From the NCBI GenBank assembly GCA_002005505.1, contig KV908765.1:41250-56249 (forward strand): a stretch of 15,000 nt of DNA, read 5' to 3'. Under the pieces are notes generated by a model. That model was given only the letters and a program-made list of their open reading frames with translations, did not search any database and was not told the DNA's origin. Shown here one piece after another: positions 1,948 through 3,501 of this stretch (positions within the stretch are counted from its first letter, which is position 1; every line of letters begins with the position of its first letter). This stretch comes from Botryococcus braunii (taxonomy: Eukaryota; Chlorophyta; Trebouxiophyceae). A program made the translations under genes and the position numbers.

Positions 1948-2419
1948 TGTTGGGTTTTGTGCTTCATTATGTCATGTTAATTTGAAGTAATTATGATTAG
2001 ATAAATAGCTGTGAGTTAACTTCACAGTTAACACAAGGTGAGGATGCCTTGACACTGGCTAATCAATCAGAAGGATAAACATTATATGGCTGTCGTCTAC
2101 TGTTACTTTTGTGGCTGAAAAACCATGCATTTACCTTTAATAAAAACGTGCATGAGAGTACTGTTAGGATAAGGGTCCAAAACCTCAAGTTCTGGACCAT
2201 TAGGGAGACAGGAAATCAGGAAAAGGGTCAGGAGTACTGCTGAATAGCGCAACCTTCACGCGCTGATCTGAGTATTGATAGGCTTAGAACCCGGAAGGAC
2301 AGGCAGTCATTCGCTCTCTAAAGGCTTGTTCAAGCCGTCTCCTGTTTGACTCGTCTGTTCTCTTATTGTCTTGCTTTCTCTTCTACTCACTGTGTGTGAG
2401 CAATTCCCTGAAAGCAACA
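1948..2419 (+). repeat. 3' LTR of the copia element (right end tentative)
   Basis: The left end TGTTGGG immediately follows the polypurine tract, the usual start of a copia LTR. The right end is placed at GCAACA (2414-2419), because TGTTG/CAACA would form the 5-bp inverted termini typical of the family and give a 472-bp LTR. No second LTR is in the window, so this end is a guess. Inside are an AATAAA (2139-2144), a GTTAAC pair at 2014-2032, and a pyrimidine-rich stretch from 2311. The 5' end of a transcript, inferred from the processed copy downstream, maps inside it at 2305, about 25 bp after an AT-rich GTATTGATA. No clear target duplication can be defined. Confidence 0.6.
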
Positions 2420-2429
2420 GTCTAATCTG

Positions 2430-2521
2430 GTAAGACTCCGGGTCATGACGGCCTCAGTTCGTTCACAGCCATGAGTGCTGAATATTGACTAGTTACTAAC
2501 ATAAGTGTGTTAATTCTACAG
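2430..2521 (+). other. Intron 1 (92 nt, GT..AG)
   Basis: The segment opens GTAAGACTCC, closes TAATTCTACAG, and has a perfect TACTAAC branch-site consensus at 2494-2500, 21 nt before the terminal AG. It is precisely absent between 2895 and 2896 in the second copy. Both the signals and the absence support a real spliceosomal intron. Confidence 0.85.
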
Positions 2522-2581
2522 ATTGTACACCAGTTCGACACCATTGAGTATGTGTGCCTGATTGAACTGGTGCAATATCTG

Positions 2582-2664
2582 ATAAGCCGGCAGTGTGACG
2601 TCTTGGTATTAGAGTAGTAATGTAGAAATCATGCAAGATACTAAAGGTGTTAGTGCGTTGACAG
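2582..2664 (+). other. Intron 2 (83 nt, AT..AG borders)
   Basis: The segment opens ATAAGC and closes GTTGACAG. A TACTAAA branch-like site lies at 2639-2645, about 20 nt before the AG, the same layout as intron 1. It is precisely missing between 2955 and 2956 in the second copy. The 5' dinucleotide is AT instead of GT. The simplest reading is a GTAAGC donor hit by G-to-A after the spliced copy was made; a genuine AT-AG intron is possible. The junction can slide by one base, but the alternative (GA..CA) is worse. Confidence 0.75.
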
Positions 2665-3020
2665 GATGATATACGTGTACGTATATTGATAATCTATATT
2701 TGATCTTTGACACCTTTGGATCTTGCAGGTGAGATTAGATAGTGTGTGTGTTCGTTCGTTCAACGTTGTAAGTCATTCGCTCTCTAAAGGCTTGTTCAAG
2801 CCGTCTCCTGTTTGACTCGTCTGTTCTCTTATTGTCTTGCTTTCTCTTCTACTCACTGTGTGTGAGCAATTCCCTGAAAGCAACAGTCTAATCTGATTGT
2901 ACACCAGTTCGACACCATTGAGTATGTGTGCCTGATTGAACTGGTGCAATATCTGGATGATATACGTGTACGTATATTGATAATCTATATTTGATCTTTG
3001 ACACCTTTGGATATTGCAGA

Positions 3021-3248
3021 TCACACACTGAAATTAGTGCGATCAGCCTTCAGCTGTGTAGACATCTTGGGATTGGAGGAGTTCATCGTGTATGCATACG
3101 AGCTGGCTGCAGTGCCTCCAGTGGTCTGTCCTGACTGTCCAGCTCCTGAGGAGGCCGTGCTGCCTCCTGCTGGTGTTGCCATAGTCTCTGTACTGCTGGG
3201 ATTACTTTCAGAAACCTTGATTTGGGAACGAGTTTGAGGTCTGGTCAT
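3021..3248 (-). pseudogene. Possible N-terminus of a copia gag, antisense within the retrocopy
   Basis: On the minus strand an ATG at 3248 opens a frame rich in Ser, Thr, Gly and Ala (about 75 residues) that ends in KMSTQLKADRTNFSV and then TGA at 3021-3023. Copia gag proteins commonly begin with a low-complexity Ser/Thr/Gly head followed by a motif of the type KL..D..NFSVW. Here the frame stops exactly where Trp would be expected, 1 bp from the boundary with exon 3. The match is by pattern only and short. The plus strand has an equally long open frame (2998-3237) that I do not recognise. If gag is correct, exon 4 of the retrocopied RNA is antisense to a copia element. Confidence 0.35.
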
Positions 3249-3477
3249 ACACTTCACTTGCTCTCACAGCGTTCAGCCTGACACAGCTGGTTTAAGTATA
3301 CCCTTCCGGCGTGCACCACAGCACTTTCAAGTATTCCACCCTTTCGAGGTCTAGCATGTACCCTTAATATGCAAGATATGCAAAATATTCTTCAGCAATT
3401 CAATTGCTTGACCACCCGGACCTACTGACTGTCTCACGACAACGACGACGGGTGATAATCTCAGGTCACTTCACGGG

Positions 3478-3501
3478 AAAAAAAAAAAAAAAAAAAAAAA
3501 A
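3478..3501 (+). other. Poly(A) tract of 24 residues
   Basis: An uninterrupted run of 24 A ends the retrocopy. It is the only A run of this length in the window and is consistent with a copied mRNA tail. Unique sequence resumes at 3502. Confidence 0.8.

Follow-up and report, generated by a model that had tools for sequence, protein, structure and literature searches.

The genome of retroviruses and of elements with long terminal repeats (LTRs) is generally taken to be an unspliced RNA, and in standard reverse transcription the U5 part of a new LTR comes from the 5' end of this RNA and the U3 part from its 3' end. Intron loss by reverse transcription of a spliced RNA removes introns precisely. 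Penelope-like elements use a different reverse transcriptase and insertion mechanism. Copies of these elements keep introns, going by a 2003 title cited in PMC11167929. Retroviruses and LTR elements must silence the poly(A) site of the 5' LTR and use that of the 3' LTR, as described in PMC3694450. For foamy viruses, passages of PMC3694450 and PMC3185757 place a splice donor in the R region of the LTR, upstream of the poly(A) signal, and report that the U1 small nuclear ribonucleoprotein suppresses polyadenylation at the 5' LTR. Here, we describe a Ty1/copia (Pseudoviridae-type) element of the green alga Botryococcus braunii whose LTR contains introns together with an intron-free copy of its own first exons. 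Its 3' LTR lies in a stretch of 15,000 nucleotides, hereafter the window (contig KV908765.1, positions 41250-56249; assembly GCA_002005505.1).

The element shares with Ty1/copia elements an RVT_2 domain, a pair of LTRs, a polypurine tract, a primer-site-like sequence after the 5' LTR, and a 5-bp target-site duplication (TSD). In contrast to these elements, the window LTR carries introns, repeats its own first exons in already spliced form, and has a poly(A)-like signal in its last intron. The foamy virus LTR appears to be the nearest precedent: in both systems a donor lies within the LTR upstream of a poly(A) signal in both LTRs (here by sequence alone), and in both the 5' poly(A) site needs to be silenced and the 3' one used. 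The two differ in that here the acceptor would lie in the same LTR before the primer site, with U5 inside the intron and being a copy of the upstream exons. Retroelement copies containing introns are also found among Penelope-like elements, but those have no LTR with a spliced U5. As in general intron loss, introns are removed precisely, here from LTRs that hold the spliced exons only; in contrast to the general case, the loss takes place within the LTR of the element itself, across several LTR groups and, as we read it, as part of replication. Literature searches for such an LTR layout found no description among the titles and abstract openings listed, which is weak evidence of novelty as subscription papers were mostly outside the search; PMC5542766 turned out to be unrelated. 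If the reading given below is correct, the element has another solution to the poly(A) problem, in which the 5' leader loses its poly(A) site together with the LTR intron and then, in spliced form, templates U5. One intron would thus both silence the 5' poly(A) site and renew the LTR, and the LTRs would be a natural, repeated record of the reverse transcription of spliced RNA, with intron losses that can be counted and dated.

The intron-bearing block (copy 1, with exons E1 to E3) and its intron-free twin (copy 2) both lie inside the terminal repeat of the Ty1/copia element. The features of the element in the window are as follows, with open reading frame abbreviated as ORF.

144..1904, + strand: Ty1/copia reverse transcriptase-RNase H part of the pol ORF (Pfam RVT_2, E=2.8e-64; ORF)
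1935..1947, + strand: polypurine tract region CCAAGGGGAAGAT, immediately upstream of the 3' LTR (LTRs classed as 3' are preceded by GGGGAAGAT)
1948..3025, + strand: 3' LTR, TGTTGG...ATCACA, 1078 bp (LTR pairs, neighbours, 5-bp TSDs)
1948..2304, + strand: U3, upstream of E1 (LTR comparison); putative promoter side
2305..2429, + strand: E1 of copy 1, beginning AGTCATT, the predicted transcription start
2430..2521, + strand: intron 1, GTAAGA...TACTAAC...CTACAG, absent from copy 2; its signals occur across subfamilies A-D and are decayed in some old copies
2522..2581, + strand: E2 of copy 1
2582..2664, + strand: intron 2, donor ATAAGC here, ending TTGACAG
2665..2728, + strand: E3 of copy 1, ending TTGCAG
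2729..3019, + strand: last intron predicted from sequence, GTGAGA...TTGCAG, consisting of spacer, poly(A) signal and copy 2
2729..2770, + strand: spacer S, ending CGTTGTA
2767..2771, + strand: TGTAA, putative poly(A) signal (sequence motif) at the spacer/copy 2 junction
2771..3019, + strand: copy 2, fused E1E2E3, putative U5 templated by the spliced leader (1/249 mismatch; concerted evolution)
3020..3025, + strand: LTR terminal tail ATCACA
3026..3501, + strand: A-tailed repeat, the insertion target, starting with the TSD CACTG and ending in A24

A sequence-only reading of the window had drawn attention to the pair, and its account of the letters was partly confirmed. Blocks 2305-2429, 2522-2581, and 2665-2728 are repeated without gaps at 2771-3019, with 248 of 249 positions identical (one mismatch). 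Intron 1 has GTAAGA, TACTAAC, and CTACAG; intron 2 has TACTAA and the TTGACAG end; and the similarity stops at the end of E3, TTGCAG, followed by the GTGAGA donor at 2729. In a table of 33 subfamily A LTRs (the window and 32 others), the sole exon mismatch, at 3013, was private to the window LTR. Intron 2 of the window begins with ATAAGC and has no GT donor, and all 32 other tandem LTRs tabulated have G at 2582. The donor change is private to this copy: intron 2 is real in the family and broken here. The search for further genomic copies that the same reading had proposed gave 36 more full-length matches to the 424-bp intron-bearing block, at 97-100% identity, many of which stand as pairs approximately 6.2 kb apart.

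What surrounds the pair differs from that reading. The two copies are parts of one 1078-bp LTR, as indicated by the LTR bounds, by the presence of the element's 5' LTR (L025) on the same contig, and by the TSD CACTG, which is duplicated on both outer sides. Thus, a target duplication, reported as not visible, is present around the whole Copia element. Of 16 contig pairs of a 5' and a 3' LTR, 14 had matching 5-bp TSDs on their two sides, this element included. The run of 24 A (3478-3501) that was said to end the second copy exists, but it belongs to the A-tailed target repeat, and the supposed exon 4 of the source gene (3020-3477) largely falls within the same high-copy repeat (3026-3501; 311 candidates at first look). 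Of 40 copies scored, all 39 besides the window's begin at window position 3026 and run into the A-tract. The flanks joined across the element form a 60-base stretch that was unchanged (60/60) in four of four other copies of the repeat. These empty sites and the shared start at 3026 assign the 24 A and exon 4 to the insertion target. Reverse transcription of a spliced RNA, the explanation offered earlier, still fits the sequence of copy 2, but there is no polyadenylated retrocopy beside a source gene, as both copies are in one LTR. The earlier doubt about a random LINE (long interspersed nuclear element) insertion was well placed: the closeness of copy to source does not come from one.

The layout was surveyed in the 176-Mb assembly (989 contigs) using the U3/E1 junction as a probe with up to 3 mismatches. 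The junction occurred 59 times, and 0 times in the control; loci were retrieved for all 59 matches. The tandem order, which is U3, E1-intron-E2-intron-E3, spacer, fused E1E2E3, and LTR end, was found in 42 of the 59 LTRs, 35 of them in subfamily A and 7 in subfamily B. The layout of A and B is also that of two older subfamilies, represented by L072 (C) and by L105, L108, and partly L071 (D), so that the pair is not the isolated recent event it was first taken for; all four subfamilies, A-D, share one spacer/copy 2 junction. Seven LTRs have the spliced-only form, U3-E1E2E3-ATCACA. Intron 1 is kept, and intron 2 and copy 2 are gone, in two (L030 and L031), which are probably one duplicated insertion as they have the same TSD and similar flanks. 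Two others (L027 and L055) have both introns and no copy 2, one (L047) is a garbled version at a flank shared with L055, and five are truncated. Neither intron occurred in copy 2 or was missing from copy 1 in any of the 42 tandem LTRs. Minor variants were a shortened intron 2 in L066 and, in L060, 22 extra nt in copy 2 that begin with letters not matching intron 2. Spliced E2-E3 with the spacer next to it, searched for in the genome by exact match to subfamily A letters, had 0 occurrences; among 64 fetched loci, this form was present in 0 and the unspliced form in 35. As a separate observation, inverted E3-like letters were seen by eye between E2 and E3 in L030 (C364) and not in the sister locus L031.

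The same layout recurs in other LTRs. We sampled 34 elements by their primer-site-like sequence, namely all 33 exact matches to its 15-mer on contigs C1-C19 plus one on C38. Grouping by blastn gave three LTR clusters (20, 8, and 5 loci) and one singleton, and the first 14 elements, with members of all three clusters, had no blastn match to the window LTR. An intra-LTR repeat was present in 28 of the 34, with copy 1 ending in CAG followed by GT and copy 2 ending in CAG 25-29 nt before the primer site; 27 were scored by script and L119 by eye. In L139, which is among the 28, the first part of copy 1 is missing. In cluster 3, copy 1 has a further GT-AG segment (GTACGT...AATAG) that is missing from copy 2. 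A second Copia LTR of matching layout is found in the window itself:

3679..4381, - strand: second Copia LTR of another cluster (cluster 2, by eye), with matching layout
4040..4175, - strand: its exon, copy 1, ending TTACAG and followed by GTGCGG
3843..4039, - strand: its spacer, with TGTAA at 3850-3846 and another at 3986-3982
3707..3842, - strand: its copy 2, ending TTACAG, 135/137 identical to copy 1 (one base past the exon counted)
3665..3678, - strand: primer-site-like GGTTATGGGCCCAC adjoining this LTR, a candidate primer site

Copy 1 and copy 2 evolve as one. We compared 249 exon columns, taking 10 LTRs from the 35 tandem ones of subfamily A, 8 from B, and 1 each from C and D, with L108 (D) left out. 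Sites at which the subfamilies differ and the two copies agree numbered 42 for A-B, 33 for A-C, 49 for A-D, 34 for B-C, 48 for B-D, and 28 for C-D. By comparison, sites that differ by copy numbered 0 in A-B, A-C, A-D, B-C, and B-D, and 1 in C-D. Sites with one odd member (1, 20, 14, 21, 15, and 31, in the same order) would be expected from post-insertion decay in single old LTRs. Similarly, trees clustered the copies by subfamily, not by copy type. Within subfamily A, L017 and L054 have one E2 change in both copies (T2563C and T2937C); these two loci, which have the same TSD, probably represent a single element divided between two contigs. Each of the remaining exon changes among the 33 A LTRs affects just one copy, as mutations after insertion would. 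In cluster 1, using eight of 18 clean tandem LTRs picked by eye for diversity, the copies differed at 0-1 of approximately 143 sites within an LTR and at 12-64 sites between LTRs. The near identity of the copies, which had been taken to mean a recent event, thus reflects renewal rather than youth alone, as in this other cluster it holds within LTRs that diverge by 8-46% in the same exon.

The intron 1 donor is GTAAG in subfamilies A, C, D, and most B copies, and its branch-like site is TACTAAC in A, TACTGAC or similar in B and C, and GGCTGAC in D. For intron 2, the donor is GTAAG or GTGAG and the branch-like site mostly TACTAA or TACTGA; the donor after E3 is GTGAG or GTAAT. A donor after the last exon and a terminal CAG are present in subfamilies A-D and in the three other LTR clusters. 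A CAG closes the last exon in all groups, in contrast to the CTG that closes the inner exons in subfamily A. Acceptors are CAG save in decayed copies. Decay has removed the intron 1 donor in B_C21 and B_C75, the intron 1 acceptor in B_C21 and B_C70, the intron 2 donor in C_C486, and the donor after E3 in B_C17 and B_C75. As computed for one LTR, the leader preceding the start codon of a short ORF would go from 739 nt with 10 ATGs to 273 nt with 4 on splicing.

All 27 clean cases have TGTAA at the start of copy 2 or no more than 15 nt ahead of it, and 0 of 27 have it at copy 1, with a chance expectation of 2.3% per stretch scanned. In Chlamydomonas, the main poly(A) signal is UGUAA, which was looked for 5-28 nt upstream of the cut site (PMC4025486; see also PMC1868727). 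By comparison, TGTAA would be the LTR poly(A) signal. Three truncated family A copies (L041, L061, and L056) were checked for tails marking the poly(A) site and none were seen. The 15-mer following the 5' LTR, GGTGGGCCCATAACC, occurred 1956 times with up to one mismatch, versus 30 times in the reversed control. This count points to a very large set of elements with a common primer site, although some one-mismatch matches may be other repeats. The candidate primer site GGTTATGGGCCCACC looks complementary to the anticodon arm of an initiator tRNA; a search with the 15-mer found too many places to single out a primer tRNA. Two versions of the primer-site stretch are found with the 5' LTRs of family A, and one of them has an additional T and an additional C.

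Taken together, copy 2 is probably U5, rewritten from the element's own spliced RNA at transposition, and we consider this the best explanation of the whole. Under the proposed route, transcription would start at E1 of copy 1, and the introns of the 5' leader would be spliced, including the last one (2729-3019), which holds the spacer, TGTAA, and all of copy 2. The spliced leader would then be E1E2E3-ATCACA-primer site. At the other end, the RNA would be cut just past TGTAA, a few bases into copy 2, and so end in the first bases of E1. This short stretch would serve as the terminal redundancy, or the whole of copy 2 would do so if the poly(A) site lies further on. Minus-strand strong-stop DNA made from the spliced leader would be transferred to the 3' end of the RNA, giving a new LTR of the form U3-E1-i1-E2-i2-E3-spacer-[fresh E1E2E3]-ATCACA, where i1 and i2 are the introns. 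Transfer to E1 of copy 1 instead would yield an LTR without introns. With the poly(A) signal inside an intron, the 5' LTR would be spared premature polyadenylation. Such a route would account for the match between copy 2 and spliced copy 1, for a spacer that starts with GT and finishes in a poly(A)-like signal, and for the failure to find LTRs in which the spacer follows a spliced copy 1. The last exon would end in CAG in all groups because its copy doubles as the 3' splice site.

Intron-less LTRs are found in family A and in clusters 1 (L125), 2 (L116 and L121), and 3 (L138). Close tandem relatives are 96% identical for L125, 99% for L116, and 92-97% for L138. Intron-less LTRs in four groups, with such relatives for L125, L116, and L138, indicate that introns were lost at least four times. 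Within family A, the intron-less element on C35 differs from C19 at 0-1 U3 sites, C192 from C69 at 1, C145 from its nearest others at 2-3, and L046 (C230) from C289 at 8. Intron gain had been named as the outcome that would overturn the sequence-only reading. Spliced-only LTRs do exist (7 of 59, in four elements), but in three of these elements U3 differs at just 0-3 sites from that of tandem-bearing ones, which fits intron loss and not gain. The losses in C35, C192, and C145 are likely independent, and only likely as the U3 sites are few. In all three TSD-matched family A elements (C35, C145, and C192), both LTRs are intron-less, which places the change at or before integration.

We weighed the rewriting of U5 against other explanations. 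The tandem may have arisen once, its exon sets being kept alike since by gene conversion or double template switches without ongoing splicing. Exon blocks of 60-170 bp would supply the homology, and the rearranged LTRs show copies being joined. However, such homogenisation should sometimes give copy 2 an intron, or deprive copy 1 of one, with both copies retained; this was seen in none of the 42 tandem LTRs, and one form of this kind, spliced E2-E3 plus spacer, had 0 exact matches in the genome. Nor does it predict, in clusters with no blastn match to the window LTR, a GT after copy 1, a CAG ending copy 2, and TGTAA before copy 2. We therefore regard it as unlikely. A passive ancient duplication, in which one reverse-transcription accident has been copied ever since without exchange, would agree with the spacer/copy 2 junction common to subfamilies A-D; it predicts sites that differ by copy, of which the six comparisons had 0, 0, 0, 0, 0, and 1, versus 28-49 that differ by family, making this origin highly improbable.

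It is scarcely credible that LINE machinery put a spliced, polyadenylated retrocopy beside its source gene: the spliced form and the downstream A run suit that idea, but the A run is part of another repeat with four of four empty sites, the TSD surrounds the whole element, and the arrangement recurs in dozens of LTRs. There is likewise very little chance that the pair is an assembly artefact from collapsed near-identical repeats. Some signs of this kind exist, in that L047 looks garbled when set against L055 and some contigs look redundant, with a shared TSD or flank; against it, numerous loci whose TSDs match have the layout, as do other LTR clusters. We also considered one end-joining event where the spacer meets E1 and dropped it, as three other LTR clusters show the same layout.

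Several points weigh against the rewriting of U5 from spliced RNA. Splicing, the start site, and the poly(A) site are predictions from the sequence. The route gives no account of how the 3' LTR escapes splicing, and the rearranged LTRs (E1E2E3; E1-i1-E2E3; E1-i1-E2-i2-E3 without copy 2) are also obtainable by exon recombination. Six of the 34 sampled elements are without the layout: four are spliced-only (L116, L121, L125, and L138), L137 is complex, and L132 has none. The concerted pattern has the one by-copy site in C-D and the 14-31 odd-member sites in the five comparisons involving C or D, and in the tree two of the copy 2 sequences of B group together, though with a support of only 45. 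Coming from three LTR clusters, the 27 cases of TGTAA are not independent, and the role of TGTAA rests on the Chlamydomonas signal, which may not be the host's. Two pattern searches for an initiator tRNA gene yielded no convincing gene. On contigs C230 and C472, the 5' LTR differs in class from the 3' LTR and the TSDs disagree; these two were not counted as pairs. Finally, among the matches listed (at least 120), the closest named relative of the reverse transcriptase ORF is from a land plant, Centaurea solstitialis; others include Volvox africanus and Tetradesmus obliquus, a set that agrees with a host of the green lineage without proving it.

The broader proposal is that a wide set of Copia elements in this genome replicates via spliced genomic RNA, with U5 rewritten at each jump, the 5' site silenced by having its poly(A) signal in the removed intron, and a last exon that must end in CAG. 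We lean towards this, though only slightly.

In the window ORF, RVT_2 was the only reverse transcriptase type found, with none of the Penelope/TERT type. The reverse transcriptase ORF had no match in PDB, an Rfam scan of the window gave no match, and one scan of viral contigs gave no match. In L109 and L110, a short ORF (63 aa from its ATG) begins approximately 20 nt or less from the LTR end, and the gag-pol ORF begins roughly 730 nt after it. The ORF of L109/L110 has gag-, protease-, and integrase-like stretches, identified by eye only and without a profile search; the reverse transcriptase follows in the window. Signs of assembly redundancy were also noted: flanks or TSDs recur on different contigs in C303/C621, C538/C772, and L047/L055, which may be haplotigs or sequence assembled twice. 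Elsewhere in the window, a 238-aa ORF at 5776-6492 had no Pfam match; its HHFVFHCPAL stretch resembles the tails of non-LTR elements. Positions 4473-4940 hold degenerate 11-bp arrays, GGGATCGAAGT and TCCCACTTTGA.

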